From Oscillospiraceae bacterium (lineage in GTDB: Bacteria; Bacillota; Clostridia; UMGS1840), in assembly GCA_015068645.1 (NCBI GenBank), contig SVKD01000002.1, positions 119,733 through 157,905 on the forward strand: a stretch of DNA of 38,173 bases, in the 5' to 3' direction. A program made the position numbers and the translations under genes. The notes beneath the pieces are model-generated. The model searched no databases and was not told where the DNA came from. It was given only the letters and a program-made list of their open reading frames with translations. Shown here piece by piece: positions 7,991 to 32,332 of the stretch. The first letter of the stretch is position 1. Each line of letters begins with the position of its first letter.

Positions 7991-8178
7991 GTGAAGGATG
8001 CAGGAGAAAGGCGGATGCCTTGCCGAAGGAGTAACTCTCTCAGGCGCTTTTAGCAAAGACTGCAGACGGATAGCGCTCCGGAGAAGTCCCTTTTCCCTCA
8101 ACCAAAAAGAGGAAAAGACAAAGGATGCCGAAGGTGTAAAGCTTAAAAGAGCTAATCTCTCAGGCAAAAGGACGGAGA
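7991..8178 (+). promoter_or_regulatory. Tandem glycine riboswitch
   Basis: Two consecutive copies of the glycine aptamer core can be read. The first has GGAGAAAG, GCCGAAGGAGTAA and CTCTCAGGC (8002-8046). The second has CTCCGGAGAAG, GCCGAAGGTGTAAA, CTCTCAGGCAAAAGGACGGAG (8077-8177). The GCCGAAGG and CTCTCAGG boxes are the invariant glycine-binding elements. A terminator follows at 8230, and the next gene is an alanine/glycine symporter, so control is probably by transcription termination. Whether glycine turns the gene on or off cannot be decided from the sequence by eye. Confidence 0.93.
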
Positions 8179-8229
8179 AAACAGTCATTTCTTTTGAAAA
8201 ATGGCTATTTCTGTGTAATGCGGAATATT

Positions 8230-18998: not shown

Positions 18999-19364
18999 AT
19001 CATCGGATTTTGGAACATAGGTTCCTGAGGGTGAGAATCACGACCGCTTGATTTTTTGGAAAATTCCATCAAGCCAAGGCCAGACGGACAGCCGGGTCGA
19101 ACGCCGAAACGCCGAATTTTGAACGCAGAATTCGGTTGGTAGGGATAACCTGCCTTATTGATTGAGTTAGAAGCTCAAATTTTATAAGTTGGTTCCTTTA
19201 CAACCATGTGCCAAAAACAGCGCACACATCGACTTGTGAAACGGTCAATAAGAGTACGCGGATTAAACTCTGAAACCTATTTCAAACCGGCAAAAGGGAA
19301 ATACCCTTTTTGTCTTCGGATTAACCTTTGCAAGCGGTGTGTCAATCAGACATACCGTTTTTTT
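18999..19364 (+). ncRNA. Candidate structured ncRNA or riboswitch-like leader upstream of the pot operon
   Basis: This stretch has its own strong promoter and ends in a strong terminator (19335-19364). The core (about 19010-19205) folds by eye into many local helices: GGAAC-ATAG-GTTCC, GGTGA-GAA-TCACG, CTTGAT.../...ATCAAG, CCGAATT.../...AATTCGG, GGTAGG-GATAA-CCTGCC, TTGAG.../...CTCAA and GTTG.../...CAAC. Purine-rich joining segments between them (GGCCAGACGGACAGCCGGGT, GAACGCCGAAACGCC) look like conserved single-stranded cores. A frame open through part of this region joins onto potA but has no family similarity. I could not assign it to a known class with certainty; it has the length and density of helices of large Firmicute ncRNAs such as raiA. 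Confidence 0.55.
19335..19364 (+). terminator. Strong intrinsic terminator inside the pot leader
   Basis: CGGTGTGTC (19335-19343) pairs fully (one G-T) with GACATACCG (19349-19357) around AATCA, followed by seven T. A second terminator-like stem, AAAAGGG/CCCTTTT, is at 19292-19310. Either could end an ncRNA or attenuate the pot transcript. Confidence 0.82.
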
Positions 19365-24065: not shown

Positions 24066-24503
24066 ATGGATAGCTTGGAAACCAATGTAATTTTAAAATT
24101 TCAAAGACTTTGTGACTGCTGGCTTTGCGAGGATTGCGGTTGTGAAAACTCCATCGTCGATTCTGTCTGCCTTGTGTGTGGTGCCAACCGTACCGGTGAT
24201 GATCTTGTGCTTCACGCAGGAGAAGAAGGGCCCGTGAATACCGATCGTGTTGACCGCGGTACTGGTGGCGGCAGAATTAGCGGAGGAACCGGTGGCGGCA
24301 GAATCAGCGGAGGAACCGGCGGCAGAACCGATGGCGGACTTAGCGGCAGAACTGGTGGCGGCTATAGTGGTGGACCTGTTGGCAGCTATGATGGCAGCTA
24401 TACCGATACTGGCTCAGGAAGTAACATCGGACTGATTGTGGCAATTATTTTTATCGTGATTGCAGTTATCGCTGTTTCAGTGGGCATTTTATTATACCAG
24501 TAA
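24066..24503 (+). CDS. Zinc-ribbon protein with Gly-rich repeats and C-terminal membrane anchor
   Basis: 145 aa. Cysteines C21, C24, C35 and C38 (CEDC...CLVC) form a zinc ribbon, with extra cysteines C16, C18 and C26 nearby. Residues 64-118 are a low-complexity Gly/Ser/Arg region with repeated GGGRISGGTG units, encoded by near-identical 27-base DNA repeats at 24258-24330. Residues 121-143 are a hydrophobic helix ending only two residues before the stop, so the protein is probably tail-anchored with its zinc ribbon in the cytosol. It starts 18 bases after potD and is followed at 38 bases by another zinc-ribbon gene; I take it as the first gene of the signalling cluster, possibly read through from the pot operon. 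Function unknown. Confidence 0.8.
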   Translation: MDSLETNVILKFQRLCDCWLCEDCGCENSIVDSVCLVCGANRTGDDLVLHAGEEGPVNTDRVDRGTGGGRISGGTGGGRISGGTGGRTDGGLSGRTGGGYSGGPVGSYDGSYTDTGSGSNIGLIVAIIFIVIAVIAVSVGILLYQ

Positions 24504-24541
24504 TTTTTATAAATCGAACGAAAGTAATCGGAGGAACCATT

Positions 24542-25351
24542 ATGCTTTGTAATCAATGTGGAAAAAATAATCCCTTCGGCGTAAAGGAATGTACCTATTG
24601 CGGTGCATTTATGCCTGCCCAGGAAGCCTGTGGCGGCTTTGCCGATATTTTAACCTATCAGCCTCCGCAGGGGCAGCAGCCTGCTCAGACTGCTCAGCAA
24701 CCTGCTCAGTTCAGTCAGCAAGCACCGGCGGCAACTTACTCAGCAAGCGGATACCGGGCAGAGTATGGTCGGGAAAACCCCTTCCGCAGACAGCTTGTGA
24801 AACAGCGGAAAATTTCCAATATTTTGCTGATTATTTCGCTGGTACTGGTGGTTGTTACATGCTTTTGTGTAATCAATTTTGGAAAGACCAAAGAAAAACT
24901 TTCCGATACCGAAACAAAACTTTCCACTCAGGAGAAAATTAACAGGCAGTTACAGGAACAATTGAATCAGCCGGCTCAGCAGGCGAAAGAGGGCCAAATT
25001 CCTCCCAATGTTGAGACGGCAAAAAGAAAAGCTGTTGAAGACAGTAAACAAATTGCGAAGAAAGCACTGGAGCTTTTGACAGGTAACAGTGCAGGCACCG
25101 GTAATGGTGAATTGATGAATCGGGTTCCTGCAGCTGCATCTCCCGCATCTACATCTGCAGCAACTCCCACACCTACCCCTGGAGTAAATCCCGAACCGTC
25201 TCTCACAGCAACTCCCACACCTGCCTCTGGAGAAAATTCCAACTCGGCTGTCGCAAGAAATTCTGCTACCAGTGAGGAAAAATTTGCAAATAATGATAAG
25301 CAGAAACCAACTGAGACCAATACTGATGTAGCTGTAGATTCCGCTCAGTAA
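24542..25351 (+). CDS. Zinc-ribbon, single-pass membrane protein with coiled coil and Pro/Thr-rich tail
   Basis: 269 aa. The N-terminus MLCNQCGKNN...ECTYCG is a CxxC...CxxC zinc ribbon (C3, C6, C17, C20). Residues 36-66 are Gln/Pro/Ala-rich (PAQTAQQPAQ). One membrane helix (about 92-112) is followed by a coiled coil (113-142) and then a Pro/Thr/Ala/Ser-rich tail with repeated ATPTP units (200-235). With a cytosolic zinc ribbon, the coiled coil and tail would be outside. Unlike the three later zinc-ribbon proteins, it has no GxW domain and no second membrane helix, and it ends DSAQ rather than AGDL. CGGAGG precedes the ATG. Function unknown; context ties it to the vWA/PP2C/kinase genes. Confidence 0.8.
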   Translation: MLCNQCGKNNPFGVKECTYCGAFMPAQEACGGFADILTYQPPQGQQPAQTAQQPAQFSQQAPAATYSASGYRAEYGRENPFRRQLVKQRKISNILLIISLVLVVVTCFCVINFGKTKEKLSDTETKLSTQEKINRQLQEQLNQPAQQAKEGQIPPNVETAKRKAVEDSKQIAKKALELLTGNSAGTGNGELMNRVPAAASPASTSAATPTPTPGVNPEPSLTATPTPASGENSNSAVARNSATSEEKFANNDKQKPTETNTDVAVDSAQ

Positions 25352-25419
25352 CAGTAATAAGGAAACGTAAAACAGGATACATAATAACGTAAATAAGAAT
25401 ATTTCAGGAGGAAAAGAAA

Positions 25420-26109
25420 ATGGCAAGCAATTATGGTAATTTAACTTATAACGTGGATATGGTGTTTTGTATCGACTGCACCGGTAGTATGGATCATATC
25501 CTTGATATTGTAAAAAATAACGCATTAAACTTCTATAATGACGTTACCAGCGTTATGGCAAACAAAAACAGACATATCACTCAGCTGCGCGTTCGCGTGG
25601 TTGCATTCCGTGATTATCTGGCAGATGGCGATAAGGCAATGATGGTAACCGATTTCTTCCGTCTGCCTCAGGATGCAGCAACTTTTGAACGCTGCGTAAG
25701 AAGCTTAACTGCAGACGGCGGCGGAGACGACCCGGAAGACGGTCTGGAAGCGTTGGCATATGCCATCAAATCCAAATGGGATACCTCTTCCGTAAAGAGC
25801 CGTCAGGTTATCGTGGTTTGGACTGACGACAGCACTCATCCCTTAGGATTTGGTGCAAGCAGTCCCTATTATCCCAAAGGAATGGCAAAAGATATCCGTG
25901 AATTATCTTCTTGGTGGGGTGGACCTCAGGAAGGCGGTTTTATGACTAAAAACGGAAAACGTTTATTGTTATTTGCTCCCGATCTTCCCGATTGGAATGT
26001 GATTTCTTCCAACTGGGATAACGTGGTGCATTTCCCCTCAGAAGCAGGAAAGGGTCTGGATACCGTAAGCTATCAGCAGATTTTAGATGCGATTTCCAAT
26101 TCTATTTAA
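25420..26109 (+). CDS. von Willebrand factor A domain protein, intact MIDAS
   Basis: A 229-aa single-domain vWA protein, probably cytosolic (no signal or membrane helix). The first strand and metal site read VDMVFCIDCTGSM, giving a MIDAS of D19-x-T21-x-S23. A DDPEDG loop lies near 103-108, and VVWTDDSTH places D136 at the third metal position. vWA domains of this kind act as Mg2+-dependent protein-binding scaffolds. With the PP2C and kinase genes downstream, the arrangement matches the TerY-type vWA proteins of TerY-P triads. AGGAGG lies before the ATG. The next gene is a close tandem duplicate. Confidence 0.88.
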   Translation: MASNYGNLTYNVDMVFCIDCTGSMDHILDIVKNNALNFYNDVTSVMANKNRHITQLRVRVVAFRDYLADGDKAMMVTDFFRLPQDAATFERCVRSLTADGGGDDPEDGLEALAYAIKSKWDTSSVKSRQVIVVWTDDSTHPLGFGASSPYYPKGMAKDIRELSSWWGGPQEGGFMTKNGKRLLLFAPDLPDWNVISSNWDNVVHFPSEAGKGLDTVSYQQILDAISNSI

Positions 26110-26147
26110 TTCAATTTGCATAGTTTGGAAAAGGATTGATGATTCAT

Positions 26148-26840
26148 ATGGAACAGAAAATGAAAAAAAATCGTAGTAATTTCACTTATAACGTGGATAT
26201 GGTATTTTGCATTGGCTGTACCGGTGATATGGGATATATTCTTGATATTATAAAAAATAATGCATTAAACTTTTATAATGACGTTACCAGCGTTGTGGCA
26301 AACAAAAACAGACATATCACCCAACTTCGTGTTCGCGTGGTTGCGTTCCGTGATTATCTGGCAGATGGCGATGAGGCAATGATGGTAACCGATTTCTTCC
26401 GTCTGCCTCAGGATGCGGCAATTTTTGAACGATGTGTGAGAAGCTTAATAATAGCAGGCGGTGGCGATCCTCCGAATGATGGCTTGGAAGCTTTGGCATA
26501 TGCCATCAAATCCAAATGGGATACTTCCTCTGACAAGAGCCGCCAGGTGATTTTGGTGTTTGCGGATGAAAGTACCCATCCCTTGGGTTATGGTGCAAGT
26601 AGCCCTTATTATCCCAAAGGAATGGCAAAGGATTTTGACGAATTATCTTCCTGGTGGGGCGGACCTCAGGAAGGCGGTTTTATGACTAAAAACGGAAAAC
26701 GTTTGCTGTTATTTGCTCCCGACGCTCCCGGTTGGAATGTGATTTCTTCCAACTGGGATAACGTGGTGCATTTCCCCGGCGTAGAAAACTATTATATGAG
26801 CTATCAGCAGATTTTGGATGCGATTTCCAATTCTATTTAA
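26148..26840 (+). CDS. von Willebrand factor A domain protein, paralogue with degenerate MIDAS
   Basis: A tandem copy of the preceding gene: most of the protein, and long runs of DNA such as that encoding MANKNRHITQLRVRVVAF, are the same or nearly so. The metal site has changed. VDMVFCIGCTGDM replaces D with G and S with D, so the DxTxS MIDAS is lost, and the third position reads FADESTH. The fold is otherwise preserved to the shared end (QQILDAISNSI), with no frameshift, so it is probably a functional non-metal-binding partner rather than debris. Possible starts are ATG 26148 (used), ATG 26139 and TTG 26136; GGAAAAGGA lies just upstream. The next gene, PP2C, follows after 24 bases. Confidence 0.85.
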   Translation: MEQKMKKNRSNFTYNVDMVFCIGCTGDMGYILDIIKNNALNFYNDVTSVVANKNRHITQLRVRVVAFRDYLADGDEAMMVTDFFRLPQDAAIFERCVRSLIIAGGGDPPNDGLEALAYAIKSKWDTSSDKSRQVILVFADESTHPLGYGASSPYYPKGMAKDFDELSSWWGGPQEGGFMTKNGKRLLLFAPDAPGWNVISSNWDNVVHFPGVENYYMSYQQILDAISNSI

Positions 26841-26864
26841 TTAGATTTAGGTAAGGTGTTGACT

Positions 26865-27761
26865 ATGAAACATGGGTTAAGCTGTCTGTTTCTGGTGGCG
26901 GAAGAAATGATTTCCGACCATGGAGAAGACTGCTATTGCTATAAAGCAACCAAAGACCGCTTTTTAGCAGCCGCTTTTGACGGTTGCGGCGGTTCCGGTG
27001 CCAGAAAATATCAGAATTATTCCCAGCAGTCCGGTGCATATGTGGCTTCCAGAGCTGTCAGCGGCAGTATCTGGGAATGGTTTGCCTCCGGAAAAGGTGA
27101 GGATGCCATGGCAGGTTATGTGCAGGCATCCTTGAATGTGTTAAAACAGTACGGAGATGCGGGCGGACGTATGCTGGGTTCTTTGGGGAAAGATTTTCCC
27201 ACCACCGCAGCGATTATCACCGGTACCATTGGCAGAAGAGCAACAGAAATTACTTGCTCCTGGGCAGGGGATTCCCGTTGTTACCTGTTAAACGCCAATG
27301 GGCTTCATCAGCTCTCTCAGGACGACCTGGACGGAGAAGATGCCATGAGCAATCTTTATAATGACGGTGTTATGACCAATGTGGTGAACGCATCCGTACC
27401 GTTTACTCTGCATCAGAAAGGGTTCCGGCTGAGTGAACCCGGCTTTTTGATTGCTGCAACTGACGGTTGCTTCGGATATCTGCAGTCACCGATGGAGTTT
27501 GAGCATTTGCTGGTGGATTCTTTGGTATCGGTACAGAATATCCAGGGGTGGAAAAAAGAATTGAACGACCGAATCCGTTCGGTAGCAGGGGACGATTATA
27601 CCCTCACCGTTGCCGGCATCGGTTACGGCAGTTTTTCTGAAATGCAGAAAAGCTTATATGCCCGTCGTCAGGTGTTGGAGCAGCACTATCTGATCCCCGA
27701 TTGTGACCCTCAGATTCTCTGGGAGCGTTACAAACAAGAATATTCGCGTTATTTAGACTAA
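26865..27761 (+). CDS. PP2C-family serine/threonine protein phosphatase
   Basis: A 298-aa soluble metal-dependent phosphatase, expected to reverse phosphorylation by the kinase encoded at 30722. Metal-binding and fold motifs are AAFDGCGGSGA (D39-G40), FPTTAA (111-116), WAGDSR (133-138), ATDG (198-201) and the GDD pair (242-244). No receiver, PAS or membrane segment is attached. A short C-terminal extension after residue 255 (QKSLYARRQVLEQHYL) is not part of the core fold. The frame is open to a GTG at 26856; ATG 26865, seven bases after AAGGTG, is the better start. It sits between the vWA pair and the GxW-domain membrane proteins. Confidence 0.9.
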   Translation: MKHGLSCLFLVAEEMISDHGEDCYCYKATKDRFLAAAFDGCGGSGARKYQNYSQQSGAYVASRAVSGSIWEWFASGKGEDAMAGYVQASLNVLKQYGDAGGRMLGSLGKDFPTTAAIITGTIGRRATEITCSWAGDSRCYLLNANGLHQLSQDDLDGEDAMSNLYNDGVMTNVVNASVPFTLHQKGFRLSEPGFLIAATDGCFGYLQSPMEFEHLLVDSLVSVQNIQGWKKELNDRIRSVAGDDYTLTVAGIGYGSFSEMQKSLYARRQVLEQHYLIPDCDPQILWERYKQEYSRYLD

Positions 27762-27790
27762 ATATATTATAAGGAAAGGAAGGACGATTG

Positions 27791-28570
27791 ATGTTTTGTA
27801 AAAATTGCGGTACACCCACCAACCCTTCTGAACAGTTTTGTAAAAAATGCGGAGCGCCTGTTGTTCCGGCAGCACCCGCTTATCCGTCAGGAACTTATGC
27901 GGTAGCTCCCGCTGCCAAACGGTCTCCCTGGATGATGGTGGTCGGCATTATCTTATTGGTAGTTGCCTTGGGCGGTCTGATTTTCTCCTTTACCACCGAT
28001 GCGAAAATTCTTGGAAAATGGAGAGAACATAATCAGTACTATCATTATGATTCGGATGCTGTTATCTTTGAATTTGGTATGTTTAATAAATTAAAAGTGC
28101 AGACGTCAGTAAATGGAATACCGACGAATGTACCAACTTCCTATAATCTGAGCGGAAATATGCTGACCTTGCAATCAGGTTTTGATTACGCCTCTATTCG
28201 GACTGTACCGATTGTTTTTTTAAATCATAATACCATTATTGCAGATGGCGATTCCGATTATCCGCTTATCAGAATGGATTCCGTTGCAACTTATGTGATT
28301 ATTATGATTGTATCTGTGTTTTTGGCAGTTGTTGGTATTATCCTGATTGTGGTCTCTATGAGAAAGCCGAAAACTCCGGCACCGATGATGTATCCTACCG
28401 GTTTTGCAGGTGCAGCTCCTATTCCTCCTATGGGTGGAGTTCGTATGGGCACTCCCAATCCCGGTGCAGTTCCCGGTTCTCCTGCAGGCGGAGTTCGTAT
28501 GAGCACTCCCGACGCGGCAGGTGCTCCTGCTCCCGGCGCAACTCCGGTTGTCCCCGGTGAAGGCAGATAA
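27791..28570 (+). CDS. Zinc-ribbon, two-helix membrane protein with external GxW domain (paralogue 1)
   Basis: 259 aa. Zinc ribbon MFCKNCG...QFCKKCG (C3, C6, C17, C20); membrane helix 1 about 47-67; a beta-rich segment of about 100 residues opening with ILGKWREH (GxW at 75-77), like lipocalin-type DUF5640 proteins; membrane helix 2 about 168-189; then a Pro/Gly/Ala-rich tail with a repeated GGVRM(G/S)TP unit. The predicted topology puts zinc ribbon and tail in the cytosol and the GxW domain outside. It lacks the AGDL terminus of its two paralogues (ends GEGR). ATG 27791 is chosen over TTG 27788, with AAGGAAGG seven bases upstream. Function unknown. Confidence 0.8.
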   Translation: MFCKNCGTPTNPSEQFCKKCGAPVVPAAPAYPSGTYAVAPAAKRSPWMMVVGIILLVVALGGLIFSFTTDAKILGKWREHNQYYHYDSDAVIFEFGMFNKLKVQTSVNGIPTNVPTSYNLSGNMLTLQSGFDYASIRTVPIVFLNHNTIIADGDSDYPLIRMDSVATYVIIMIVSVFLAVVGIILIVVSMRKPKTPAPMMYPTGFAGAAPIPPMGGVRMGTPNPGAVPGSPAGGVRMSTPDAAGAPAPGATPVVPGEGR

Positions 28571-28611
28571 TATCATTCATTTTATAAATCAAAGAAAGGA
28601 AGGGCAGCAAG

Positions 28612-29553
28612 ATGCAATGTCCAAACTGCGGTTCGATTCTCGTTTCCACGGCTACCGTTTGTAATCGGTGTAATACGCCTGTGAAACCGGCAAATGCGCC
28701 AAAACCTGTCAAAAAATCTATATTTGCAAAAATTGTTGCTGTCTTTTTGTTTTTGGTTGCAGCAGTTGGTGTGTTTTTTTCTATGAAACCATCTGTCTGT
28801 CTGACAGGTACCTGGCAACGTAATTTCCAAACGGAACAGGCTGGTGTTCTGGTTCGTCAGGAATATTCCTTTAATCCTGTGGGAGTGATGTCCCGTGATT
28901 TGGGAAATCAGCGGGAACGTGGCAGATATGAACTGCAAGACGGTTATTTTGTGTTTACTCAAACCAATGCAGATGCTTCCGAAACCATTCCCTACTCAGT
29001 TTCCGTTTTTGGAAAACTGACCATCAACGGAGAAATCCCCTACCCGTACACCATTGTGGGATTATCTCTTTCGCACACCCTTTTACTCATATCCATTGGC
29101 CTTGTGGGATTAGGTGTGTATCTGTTTTTAAAACGACCGAAATTAAAACTGGAAGACGACGAAGACGAGGACGAAATTGAATACGAAGTGTATGAAGAGG
29201 ATGAAGAGGACGAAGAGGAAATAGTTCCGGTAGTTCCCAATCCTCCCCCACCGCGGCGGCGTCCCGAAGATTATCCTTTAATAATGGGTCATCGGGTTGG
29301 TCCCCGTGATCAATTTGTCAATGTGGATCCTTTGGATCCCGGCAGAGGCGTTGTTCCCCAAAAGCCGAATCCTCCCCCACCGCCGCGGCGTCCCAAAGAT
29401 TATCCTTTAATGGGTCGTCCGGCTGGTCCCCGTGATCAATTTGTCAATGTGGATCCTTTGGATCCCGGCAGAGGCGTTGTTCCCCAAAAGCCGAATCCGC
29501 CACCACCTGCCAAAGCTGATAATGAGCATTTTCAGCAGGCAGGCGACTTATAA
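28612..29553 (+). CDS. Zinc-ribbon, two-helix membrane protein with external GxW domain, acidic/Pro-rich repeat tail (paralogue 2)
   Basis: 313 aa. Zinc ribbon MQCPNCG...VCNRCN (C3, C6, C17, C20); membrane helix 1 about 38-57; external beta segment starting LTGTWQRN (GxW 66-68); membrane helix 2 about 155-173; a strongly acidic run of D/E (181-203); then two tandem 42-43-residue repeats (210-252 and 253-294) built of PPPP, DYPL, GPRDQFVNVDPLDPGRG and VVPQKP. It ends QQAGDL, sharing AGDL with the next zinc-ribbon protein and the kinase. Proline-rich repeats after an acidic linker suggest a multivalent binding tail on the cytosolic side. AAAGGAAGGGC precedes the ATG. Confidence 0.8.
   Translation: MQCPNCGSILVSTATVCNRCNTPVKPANAPKPVKKSIFAKIVAVFLFLVAAVGVFFSMKPSVCLTGTWQRNFQTEQAGVLVRQEYSFNPVGVMSRDLGNQRERGRYELQDGYFVFTQTNADASETIPYSVSVFGKLTINGEIPYPYTIVGLSLSHTLLLISIGLVGLGVYLFLKRPKLKLEDDEDEDEIEYEVYEEDEEDEEEIVPVVPNPPPPRRRPEDYPLIMGHRVGPRDQFVNVDPLDPGRGVVPQKPNPPPPPRRPKDYPLMGRPAGPRDQFVNVDPLDPGRGVVPQKPNPPPPAKADNEHFQQAGDL
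29239..29493 (+). repeat. Tandem 129/126-bp coding repeat
   Basis: Two in-frame DNA repeats (29239-29367 and 29368-29493), with a third partial start at 29494, encode the 43- and 42-residue Pro-rich units. Stretches such as GATCAATTTGTCAATGTGG are identical in both, implying recent duplication or gene conversion. Confidence 0.9.
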
Positions 29554-29610
29554 GGATAAAATCAATCAAACTTAAAATAAGAATTTCCATTGGAAAGGAC
29601 GAGCGAGCAT

Positions 29611-30681
29611 ATGGTATGTAATCGATGCGGTACTCCCCTGAAAACAACAGATGTCTACTGTACTCGTTGCGGTGCAGACGTCAGAGGGAAGGTTCCCGCG
29701 AAAAAAACAAAAAAAGAATATGTTATTGTGAAGAAATCTCCCGGGGTAATCATTGTTGCAGTACTCCTTTTGATGATTGCCGCAGTGGGGATCTGGTATT
29801 CCACCACAGACCAGGCTCGAATTGTCGGACGCTGGAAATGTGAACGTGTAATTTCCGAAGCCGACGCAGAAACCGAAGAAACCGTTAGTGTATGGCTCAA
29901 TTTTGACCTGTTCGGAAATGTGACTGAAGAGGTGAAGGCTTCTGCCAAAAACGGAAATTACGTCAGTGGTACCGTAACCAAAGGGAAATATAAATTAAAT
30001 CGGAATAATTTGACGATAATCCGTGCAAATCCGAAAATCACCGTGGTGGAAGATTTTCAGTTTATGGGCGACAGTATGCTTGTGGTAAATGATAATGATG
30101 ATCATCCCCTTACCAGAATAGATGCCATCCGTTTTTACTGGTGGATTGTTGCCGGCTCTTTGCTGTTTGGTCTGATTGGCTTGGTGCTTTTGATCAAACA
30201 GAAGAAAAAGCCTGTGAAAAAAGAAAAAGGAATCGGCGGTTCTTTCTTTAAATTGTTTAATATAGGAGGTTCCTTGAATCCTGATGATGTGCCAAGGATC
30301 AAAACTCCCGGCGGAAGTACAGGTTCTACCGGTTCTATGGGCGGTGCGCAGGGCACTGCAGGCACATCAACCACCACCGGCACTGCTGCAGGCGGCGGTG
30401 TGAAGATCAATATGGGAAAATCAACCCATGGAACTTCTACCGGTTCTCTTGGTTCTTTTGGATCTTTGGGTTCCACCGGCACCTCAACCACTACCGGCTC
30501 CTCTGAAACACTTGGTTCCACCGGTGTATCAACCACTACCGGAGCCTCCGGTTCCAAGATTATTTCTTCTGTAAAATCTTCAGCAGGCGCTACCGGCACC
30601 TCATTTACAAGCCGTTCGGCTGGTTCTGCAAGTGTTTCGTCTTCCGATTCCGATCTGATGGAACGTGCAGGAGATTTATAA
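29611..30681 (+). CDS. Zinc-ribbon, two-helix membrane protein with external GxW domain, Ser/Thr/Gly repeat tail (paralogue 3)
   Basis: 356 aa. Zinc ribbon MVCNRCG...VYCTRCG (C3, C6, C17, C20); basic linker; membrane helix 1 about 45-64; external beta segment starting IVGRWKCE (GxW 73-75); membrane helix 2 about 176-195; basic KKKPVKKEK stop-transfer; then a 150-residue tail rich in Ser, Thr and Gly with repeated GTSTTTG and GSTG units, ending LMERAGDL. The Thr/Ser-dense cytosolic tail is an obvious possible substrate for the neighbouring kinase, but that is inference. The frame is open to a TTG at 29590; ATG 29611 aligns the zinc ribbon with its paralogues. The kinase gene begins 40 bases downstream. 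Confidence 0.8.
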   Translation: MVCNRCGTPLKTTDVYCTRCGADVRGKVPAKKTKKEYVIVKKSPGVIIVAVLLLMIAAVGIWYSTTDQARIVGRWKCERVISEADAETEETVSVWLNFDLFGNVTEEVKASAKNGNYVSGTVTKGKYKLNRNNLTIIRANPKITVVEDFQFMGDSMLVVNDNDDHPLTRIDAIRFYWWIVAGSLLFGLIGLVLLIKQKKKPVKKEKGIGGSFFKLFNIGGSLNPDDVPRIKTPGGSTGSTGSMGGAQGTAGTSTTTGTAAGGGVKINMGKSTHGTSTGSLGSFGSLGSTGTSTTTGSSETLGSTGVSTTTGASGSKIISSVKSSAGATGTSFTSRSAGSASVSSSDSDLMERAGDL

Positions 30682-30721
30682 TCAGAAATTTTAGTAATAT
30701 CAAATTAGCGGAGAGATTTTT

Positions 30722-32119
30722 ATGACCATCAACGGATATACCTTGCAAGGGGAATGGATCACCACCAACAGTGGTTTTTCCAAGTGGGGCTTTGCAAATA
30801 AAAACGGACGGGAATACTTTATTAAAGAGCTGGTAACCCCCGTGTATCCCGTAGACCCTGCTGTAATGACACCCGGGCAGTTTGAAAGCCGTCGTACATA
30901 TTGCAAGGAGTATGAAAAACGATTTGAAAAATTCTATACCCGTATCAATGAAGTAAGCCGTGGAAATCTAGTCAGAATCCATGAGTTTTTCCGTCACGGC
31001 AGCCGATATTATGTGGTAACGGAAAAGGTGAGAGGTTCTGCTGCAGCTATGCAACAGATTTCTCAGCTACCTGAAAATAAAAAGCTGCTTCTGATGAAAA
31101 CAGTTGCCCAGAGCTTTTGTGATTTACATTCGGTAGGAATTATTCATTTTGATGTAAAGCCTGCCAATATTCTGCTCAATATTACCGGACACGGCAATTA
31201 TGTTGCCAGAGTGATCGACTTTGATTCCGGTCTTTTCCGGGAAGAAACCTTGGAGGACCGTGAATTGGGCGGTGACTTAACCTATCTGGCTCCTGAAACT
31301 TTTTTGGGAATGATTGGTGAGGACTCTCATCCGGACGAGAAAGCAGACGTGTTTGCATTGGGGCTGGTATTTCACGAATATTATTTCGGAAGATTACCTG
31401 CCTATAGCGAAAAGGGTTACGAATATCCCTTTGAAGAGGCTTTGGAAGAGGATTATGTTCATCCCGACACAGGATGCGGTTCCCGTATGGTTGCCGACCT
31501 GATTCAGGATATGTTAATCGCAGAGCCCGAAAAACGTCCTGCCATTGAAGATGTGTTAACCAGAATCAATAATTTTATGGGATTCCAGCAGCAGGAAAGC
31601 TCCAAAATCTGGGTCCGTGAACTGGAGCTTACCTATGGCGGTTCTCAGGGCAGAGCAATCAGCCTGACACCGGAACGTATCCGTTGGTGGAATACCGCAC
31701 CTTCCACAGCCTGGAAAGAAAACTGCGGACTGGCAGATTCCTATTTTGCTCATCAGGAAACACCGATGACGCCCGAGCTTTATCAGGAGTTAATGGAAAG
31801 TGTGATGGCAGCAGGACTTGTTCAGCTGCTGTCTGCACCAAAACCCACAGGGCGCCTGATTATTTCCGGTGCTTTCAACCAGTCGTTGCAGGTTTGTAAT
31901 CGGGACGGTACCATGGGTACCTATTCCGCAAAAGGAGCCCCCTTAGAACCATTCAATAAAATTGTTGCAATTTTAGAAAAACATTGCACCTTCCCTCGTG
32001 CGGAAGATCATCGGGAAACTACCCCCAAGGTAAAACCTGAGGAAACGCCTAAGACAGAAACGCCTGTCAATAGCGGACCCGAGCCGGCGGCTTGGTTTCA
32101 TCATGCCGGCGATTTATAA
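30722..32119 (+). CDS. Atypical Ser/Thr protein kinase with unrecognised C-terminal domain and AGDL end
   Basis: 465 aa, no membrane helix. The kinase domain covers about residues 5-288: a degenerate glycine loop (TTNSGFSKWGFA), ATP-binding K35 in YFIKEL, the catalytic loop HFDVKPANIL (H142, D144, K146, N149; the HRD arginine is Phe), IDFDSG in place of DFG (D166), YLAPE (188-192), D209 in ADVFALG and R272 in KRPA. Catalytic residues are present, so activity is likely. Residues about 297-425 form an alpha/beta region I do not recognise (ELTYGGSQGRAISL...RWWNTAP...IVAILEKHCTF). A Pro/Glu/Thr linker then leads to WFHHAGDL. It is the last gene of the cluster; GGAGAG precedes the ATG. Confidence 0.88.
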   Translation: MTINGYTLQGEWITTNSGFSKWGFANKNGREYFIKELVTPVYPVDPAVMTPGQFESRRTYCKEYEKRFEKFYTRINEVSRGNLVRIHEFFRHGSRYYVVTEKVRGSAAAMQQISQLPENKKLLLMKTVAQSFCDLHSVGIIHFDVKPANILLNITGHGNYVARVIDFDSGLFREETLEDRELGGDLTYLAPETFLGMIGEDSHPDEKADVFALGLVFHEYYFGRLPAYSEKGYEYPFEEALEEDYVHPDTGCGSRMVADLIQDMLIAEPEKRPAIEDVLTRINNFMGFQQQESSKIWVRELELTYGGSQGRAISLTPERIRWWNTAPSTAWKENCGLADSYFAHQETPMTPELYQELMESVMAAGLVQLLSAPKPTGRLIISGAFNQSLQVCNRDGTMGTYSAKGAPLEPFNKIVAILEKHCTFPRAEDHRETTPKVKPEETPKTETPVNSGPEPAAWFHHAGDL

Positions 32120-32280: not shown

Positions 32281-32284
32281 ATAA

Positions 32285-32332
32285 AAAAGACGAAATTCTT
32301 TGTGAAAGAAAACAAAGAGTTTCGTCTTTTTG
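32285..32332 (+). terminator. Strong intrinsic terminator closing the signalling cluster
   Basis: AAAAGACGAAA (32285-32295) pairs with TTTCGTCTTTT (32320-32330), continued inward by TCTTTGT/ACAAAGA. The near-perfect stem of about 19 bp is T-rich at its 3' end. It lies 165 bases after the kinase stop. Confidence 0.85.

Follow-up and report, generated by a model that had tools for sequence, protein, structure and literature searches.

A C-terminal tag common to a Ser/Thr kinase and neighbouring membrane proteins in a clostridial vWA-PP2C-kinase cluster: a candidate recruitment signal

What could a kinase, a phosphatase, two von Willebrand factor A (vWA) proteins and five membrane proteins be doing together, and what would bring them to one another? 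The question is raised by a stretch of 38,173 nucleotides from a gut bacterium of the Oscillospiraceae (assembly GCA_015068645.1, contig SVKD01000002.1, positions 119,733 to 157,905), the whole of which we call the window. Nine co-directional open reading frames (ORFs) were verified at 24066-32119 of its + strand, the strand of all features given below. Their products are, in order, zr1, zr2, vWA1, vWA2, a PP2C-type phosphatase, M1, M2, M3 and a Ser/Thr kinase. With the likeliest starts the gaps between them are 38, 68, 41, 24, 29, 41, 57 and 40 bp, and a purine-rich stretch resembling a Shine-Dalgarno sequence precedes the start codon in most. An original prediction, made from the letters of this DNA, had described nine co-directional genes with short gaps (24-68 bp, as it turns out) and had suggested a candidate membrane phosphosignalling system. 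We keep this as the best reading and give it a sharper form: the cluster may encode an accessory, membrane-associated Ser/Thr phosphosignalling complex that recruits its clients by means of a shared linear C-terminal tag. We put the probability of this at roughly 60%.

The tag, which the original prediction had missed, is the tail on which M2, M3 and the kinase end: HFQQAGDL (29527-29550), LMERAGDL (30655-30678) and WFHHAGDL (32093-32116), respectively. In the whole genome these three are the only ORFs of at least 60 amino acids that finish with AGDL and a stop codon. A locus of the same genus (L009) has FFHSGGDL on M2, HMERAGDL on M3 and WFSQAGDL on the kinase, and kinase/partner tails at three further loci from other Clostridia read WFKPAGDL/RFKQAGDL, WFSMAGDL/WFTSAGDL and WFSSAGDL. 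All nine of the nine closest kinases end in WFxx[AG]GDL; the linker before this tail differs greatly in length and sequence and is unalignable. When five of the kinases are aligned, W458, F459 and A462-L465 are invariant and the preceding region does not align. More distant systems carry altered tails (FFKKADEL, HFMKADDLS, HFKKAEDIF and EKFKQAGSLF). At E<=1 no Pfam domain, SHOCT or other, covers the tail of M2, M3 or the kinase. Our searches of the open-access literature turned up no account of the tag, and those of databases no match to it.

Could so short a sequence recur by accident? We used 391 genomes of the class and, as a second sample, 398 genomes of the phylum. The tag was sought as a DNA pattern for WFxxAGDL-stop with the reversed pattern as control, and the vWA gene was counted as present at 65% identity or more. 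In the class sample there were 11 sites in 7 of the 391 genomes (one of them, at a contig end, repeats another) and 2 sites for the reversed control. Relatives of the vWA with at least 65% identity occur in 11 of the 391 genomes, and these 11 include every one of the 7 tag genomes (hypergeometric p=1.3e-12). Within the phylum sample no genome other than that of the window yielded the vWA, and the window holds the only true match to the tag pattern; the other match, in genome G455, reads AGDF. A looser pattern, FxxAGDL/FxxGGDL, matched at 21 sites of eight tag genomes; clusters account for 19 of these (the contig-end repeat included), and the other two are in a helix-turn-helix (HTH)-like ORF of genome G287 and an FtsW-type protein of genome G060. 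The recurrence of the tag in other genomes is far beyond chance.

Recent duplication or recombination between neighbouring genes might have left the same ending on several of them, in which case the tags would be remnants without a function. Copying would also make the tags of one genome similar, and similar they are: the mean identity of kinase and partner tails is 5.67 of 9 within a genome and 5.04 in shuffled pairs (permutation p=0.002), as exemplified by GGDL/GGDL in G025 and ADDLS/ANDLD in G362. This similarity fits a shared receptor, and copying between neighbours could contribute to it. However, nine divergent kinases have kept WFxx[AG]GDL next to a linker that cannot be aligned, and the tagged partners are otherwise non-homologous; the tail is therefore under selection. 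Such conservation largely refutes the idea of remnants, which we regard as very improbable.

The lack of homology among tagged partners is plain from their identities. Besides the barrel proteins of the window, described below, they include a BspA-type leucine-rich repeat (LRR_5) surface protein with a transmembrane (TM) segment (WFKSAGDL) and a TetR-type regulator (WFSVGNDL), both from genome G358, where the tail or something close to it stands at the end of the kinase, of the four genes that separate the kinase from PP2C and of two further genes nearby (locus L077). In G112 the tagged partner is a 4-TM protein and in G025 a soluble zinc-ribbon protein. The HTH-like ORF of G287 (contig 72, L108 1309-1521) is 60 amino acids long, has the tail FRTAGDL and lies away from the main cluster, adjoining genes that resemble those downstream of the kinase in L010.

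A short C-terminal signal that recurs on unrelated proteins is just as typical of degrons, and the receptor that we propose for the tag is a candidate only. The tag might then be a degradation or processing signal, such as a C-terminal degron or a protease site, that sets a joint half-life for the kinase and the sensors. A generic degron should nevertheless occur genome-wide, yet the tag is nearly confined to the cluster; the unit is without a protease, and the tail co-varies within genomes. We therefore consider this role improbable. Judged from its distribution, the tag is probably a docking signal.

Which proteins would dock? The five zinc-ribbon membrane proteins named in the original prediction have two CxxC pairs each, and their zinc ribbons pass the Pfam cut-off in M1 and M3 and match weakly in zr1 (E=0.055), zr2 (E=0.003) and M2 (E=0.0034). 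In zr1 (24066-24503), assigned also with the help of its relatives, an N-terminal RanBP2-like zinc ribbon is followed by a Gly-rich linker and one C-terminal TM helix. The ribbon of zr2 (24542-25351) is accompanied by a conserved GFADIL(S/T)Y stretch, one TM helix and a low-complexity region rich in Q, E and K. M1 (27791-28570), M2 (28612-29553) and M3 (29611-30681) share another plan, in which the ribbon is followed by a TM helix, a GxW domain (KILGKW in M1), a second TM helix and a tail; the tail is Pro/Gly-rich, cytosolic and untagged in M1, acidic/Pro-rich in M2 and disordered in M3, the latter two with the tag at the end. Charge asymmetry at the last TM helix of M1-M3 and of other tagged membrane proteins indicates that the C-terminal tails are cytosolic. 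The predicted arrangement of an external domain with cytosolic zinc ribbons and tails agrees with this distribution of charges.

The GxW domain itself is predicted to be an eight-stranded beta-barrel between the two TM helices, with its G and W invariant. An AlphaFold2 model of M3, built with seven sequences of the M1-M3 type, has a confident zinc ribbon, a TM helix at 44-64, eight strands at 73-169, a second TM helix at 175-195 and then about 150 disordered residues. In a Foldseek search with the whole model the nearest structure was the periplasmic domain of ToxS (8u2f, E=9e-4), together with many lipocalins. Target-normalised TM-scores are merely about 0.4-0.6, and for this reason we take the predicted likeness as one of fold and not of homology. 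We give an even chance to the idea that the barrel is a sensor of an extracellular ligand. A second linear motif, [RK]L[KR]STMR or near forms of it, recurs in the disordered tails of tagged and neighbouring proteins (L077 7155-9746, L009 2082-3143, L010 8587-9192, L085 8290-9330 and L086 6108-6620) and is a candidate phosphorylation or binding site.

How much of this is constant? The order zr1-zr2-vWA-PP2C-(others)-kinase is found in nine genomes from several families of Clostridia, which supports the earlier suggestion of a defined system. Every one of the nine genomes with [AG]GDL tails (9 of 12 clostridial loci) has both zr1 and zr2, whose recognisable form is missing from those with variant tails. 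Proteins of the barrel type, zinc ribbon-TM-barrel-TM, exist in only about 5 of the 12 clostridial loci; in the others the stretch from PP2C to the kinase encodes membrane proteins of another kind or none at all. They are not a constant part of the system, which consists of the triad of vWA, PP2C and kinase together with zr1/zr2 (in 9 of 12) and the tag at the end of the kinase.

In the triad the most conserved gene of the system is that of vWA1 (25420-26109; 65-83% identity between genomes), which has a VWA_4-type domain (PF25106/PF13519 above cut-off) and an intact metal ion-dependent adhesion site (MIDAS, DxTxS) with the loop D19-C20-T21-G22-S23 at 25474-25488. Its paralogue vWA2 (26139-26840; start uncertain, 26136-26148) is 86% identical and carries D19G, S23D, D104P and T135A (vWA1 numbering) at or beside the MIDAS. 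Its Pfam match is weak because the metal site has been lost. A dN/dS of 0.17 over the gene indicates purifying selection. Being metal-dead and yet kept by selection, vWA2 is more likely a partner of vWA1 than just a second copy of it. CoCoNuT operons, too, have been reported to contain duplicated vWA genes in which the MIDAS is defective (PMC11090510). The duplicated vWA of the original prediction thus stands as two genes, with the qualifications that the second is dead at its metal site and that, among tag-bearing loci, only the window's genome has the duplication. A distant vWA paralogue (31% identity, 425 amino acids) is encoded in a different context on contig 5 of the same genome (L091 9112-10383).

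The remaining two members of the triad were also correctly named. The PP2C-type phosphatase (26856-27761, starting at GTG 26856 or ATG 26865) keeps the metal-binding motifs; it falls below the Pfam cut-off in the window, its relative in L010 matches PP2C_2 at 4e-4, and the DG, TDG and GDD motifs are invariant. A search of PDB sequences gave marginal matches to integrin beta only for the vWA profile and none for the PP2C profile. The kinase (30722-32119; PF00069, E=1e-26) is soluble and has HFDVKPAN and DFD motifs, a folded C-terminal region at about 298-420, the variable linker and the tag. No TM helix was found in its L009 orthologue or in the other kinases, and it has no PASTA match in Pfam, zero zinc-ribbon matches in Pfam and zero CxxC pairs. 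Identity with the PASTA kinases PrkC/Stk1 was rejected on the absence of TM and PASTA segments; the NCBIfam Stk1 match covers the kinase domain only, with 59 bits against 450.

From these elements the following scheme can be put forward. The vWA, PP2C and kinase would form a core held near the membrane by zr1/zr2 and by tagged sensors. Its variable part would be the clients, for the most part membrane sensors whose tail is disordered and lies in the cytosol, tagged like the kinase with [W/H/F/R]Fxx[A/G]GDL-COOH. If one shared receptor in the core binds the tag, clients and kinase will be brought together; the kinase would then phosphorylate the client tails and PP2C would reset them. Gaining a tag would add a new client; in relatives this may have happened to the LRR surface protein and the TetR-like regulator, and perhaps also to the FtsW-type protein. 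Whether the clients are indeed substrates of the kinase we judge to be evenly balanced.

As for the receptor, a fecal contig on which a tailed kinase is encoded with PP2C and vWA only makes these two the prime candidates. In other vWA proteins the MIDAS is a binding site for acidic ligands. Since the tail ends in Asp-Leu-COOH and residue 20, which is the sole vWA position fixed differently (Cys in genomes with [AG]GDL tails, Ala in those with variant tails), lies in the MIDAS loop, we tentatively favour the vWA metal site, binding the tail Asp and/or the carboxylate, over PP2C, zr1/zr2 or a host factor, even if the odds are somewhat against it. A bolder and rather doubtful suggestion is that the MIDAS ion of the vWA reads AGDL-COOH, that any protein gaining the tail becomes a client of kinase and PP2C, and that the metal-dead vWA2 serves in regulation or scaffolding.

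Several points weigh against the proposed complex. The function of the tag has been derived solely from its distribution. M1, zr1 and zr2 are untagged, and at some loci (L012, for instance) the kinase is not accompanied by any tagged client. The two looser-pattern sites outside clusters in eight genomes are about what chance would give (control 1), the double copy in the FtsW-type protein excepted, and that tagged FtsW is from a single genome. Cys/Ala 20 of the vWA is weak evidence for the receptor because the correlation amounts to one branch of the tree and Cys139 of PP2C splits identically. The AlphaFold2 kinase model is poor (pLDDT, the predicted local distance difference test, 51) and uninformative on tail binding, including that of the tail by the kinase itself.

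The double copy deserves a closer look, as it hints at a more specific output of the same complex, namely control of cell wall or division. The barrel would sense an envelope ligand, and an FtsW-type transferase would be regulated by phosphorylation. In G060 an FtsW/RodA/SpoVE-type protein (L117 5580-7232, contig 62) is extended at its C-terminus by about 110 residues, which contain an internal FFRGGDL and finish with FFTGGGDL, and its gene adjoins that of a penicillin-binding protein with a transpeptidase domain. FtsW-type homologues in four family members in which no vWA was detected have no such extension. The ToxS/lipocalin-like barrel predicted outside the cell would suit an envelope sensor. 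On the other hand, the FtsW-type gene and the triad are on different contigs in this one genome, and C-terminal matches, as far as they go, reveal a tagged FtsW in none of the other tag genomes. We think this output unlikely.

Is the system part of the normal equipment of these bacteria? The vWA-PP2C-kinase core is found in 11 of the 391 genomes of the class and also in Chloroflexota and Cyanobacteria. Its occurrence is patchy, with 4 of 21 genomes of one family and 2 of 5 of the window's genus having it, and no further system was found in the wider phylum sample. Phage terminase and capsid genes directly adjoin two triad loci (L010 1363-5498 and L087 9179-10618). Because of this patchiness and these phage neighbours, we take the system to be accessory and, probably, mobile. 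Plasmids of Herpetosiphon and Calothrix carry relatives of the triad with vWA identity of 40-46%, the Herpetosiphon locus also encoding a small zinc ribbon-TM protein like zr1; a vWA search of 72,556 plasmids gave two distant matches only. Another relative is on a contig deposited as phage. A phage origin was rejected, as no relative was found in IMG/VR and the integrase genes of that contig resemble those of an integrative element. Two distant clostridial triads, in G328 and G274, are without the tail. In G328 two proteins, the kinase and one with a zinc ribbon, have a C-terminal 'WPE' repeat domain in common instead (L088, 3585-4160 and 4201-5802), perhaps an instance of the same kind of coupling in which a domain takes the place of the tail.

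Accessory, probably mobile DNA brings defence to mind: the cluster might be a TerY-P-like module against phages or other invaders, with the membrane proteins as sensors of invasion or effectors. TerY-P modules protect P. aeruginosa from phages (PMC10889362) and associate with restriction systems (PMC11090510); the patchy distribution, the phage genes, the integrases and the plasmids would all suit such a module, as would the resemblance of the kinase to those of MAD6 and PD-T4-6. Yet no nuclease, NADase or other known effector is present within the unit, housekeeping genes flank the cluster in the window, and there is no match in IMG/VR. PADLOC, whose library was used without a TerY control, gives generic kinase matches only. 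Membership of the kinase in MAD6 or PD-T4-6 was rejected, the PADLOC and NCBIfam matches being to the kinase domain in general and far below the cut-off where one is given. We regard defence as a rather unlikely purpose, though a more serious contender than the other alternatives above.

The unit in the window ends 3' of the kinase at a strong terminator-like hairpin of 20 pairs (32284-32331), and no hairpin of comparable strength was found within the nine-gene cluster. Genes for a polyamine-type ABC transporter are located upstream of the cluster, and downstream of the hairpin, as read by eye from the sequences, there are a dehydrogenase gene and a thymidylate-kinase-like gene. Elsewhere in the window a Glycine riboswitch aptamer (Rfam RF00504) is located at 8068-8185 and a match to the SpF59 small RNA (Rfam RF02440, 61.8 bits) at 19041-19107, just upstream of the transporter genes.

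Where it is understood how a bacterial kinase is recruited, the substrates are mostly found via domains or local sequence features. If our suggestion is correct, a C-terminal tag on a kinase and many unrelated partners would be a simple rule of recruitment, and candidate substrates could be predicted from sequence alone by their tails. The widespread and functionally obscure vWA-PP2C-kinase triad would be linked to named clients, and an acidic C-terminus would become a possible type of ligand for the metal site of a bacterial vWA protein. The tag idea can be tested directly with peptides.

We know other systems that invite comparison. The barrel of M3 shares eight strands and an N-terminal GxW with lipocalins in its AlphaFold2 model, a similarity of fold only, and has no sequence match at the curated cut-off (Lipocalin_4, E=0.0015, 19.8 against 22.4 bits); unlike ToxS and lipocalins, it sits inside a two-TM zinc-ribbon protein. 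E. coli YegI-PphC-YegL likewise encodes a kinase, a PP2C and a vWA protein together, but its vWA and PP2C have no significant BLASTP match to those of the cluster, its kinase just E=8e-4, and it has neither a tag nor membrane zinc ribbons between the genes. Similar to the tag in logic are the effector-associated domains (EADs) of MoxR-vWA/GTPase conflict systems (Kaur et al. 2020, PMC7159879), modules repeated on the core and on unrelated partners for which a coupling role has been proposed. EAD copies resemble one another most inside a lineage or genome; the tags, too, are most alike within genomes and are confined to genomes with the core. EADs are small folded domains, however, whereas the tag is an eight-residue linear tail after a disordered linker of low pLDDT and, among the genomes examined, goes with a kinase triad. 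The vWA/PP2C/kinase group found beside GAP1-N2 GTPase systems (PMC7159879) comprises a kinase fused to a zinc ribbon/TM, a PP2C and a stand-alone vWA; GTPase/GAP1 genes were not recognised in the present cluster, which has separate membrane zinc-ribbon proteins and the tag.

The likeness to TerY-P, pointed out in the original prediction, holds in part. TerY-P consists of a TerY-like vWA, a PP2C and a kinase fused C-terminally to a zinc ribbon, or to an OB-fold in variants (PMC11090510). Adjacent, co-directional genes for vWA, PP2C and Ser/Thr kinase are present here too, zinc ribbons are part of both systems, and a duplicated vWA with defective MIDAS, as in our cluster, has been described there (PMC11090510). 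The fusion is absent: the ribbons are on separate membrane proteins and the kinase ends in WFxxAGDL, so that strict TerY-P membership was rejected. When TerY-family membership was checked, with no TerY profile available as control, the best Pfam match of the vWA was VWA_4, and E. coli YegL matched VWA/VWA_2 and not VWA_4. The cluster is a TerY-P-type triad in the broad sense. Compared with TerY-P, a shared C-terminal tag and variable membrane clients are features of the present cluster only, and what distinguishes it among vWA-PP2C-kinase triads is the C-terminal tag common to the kinase and its clients.

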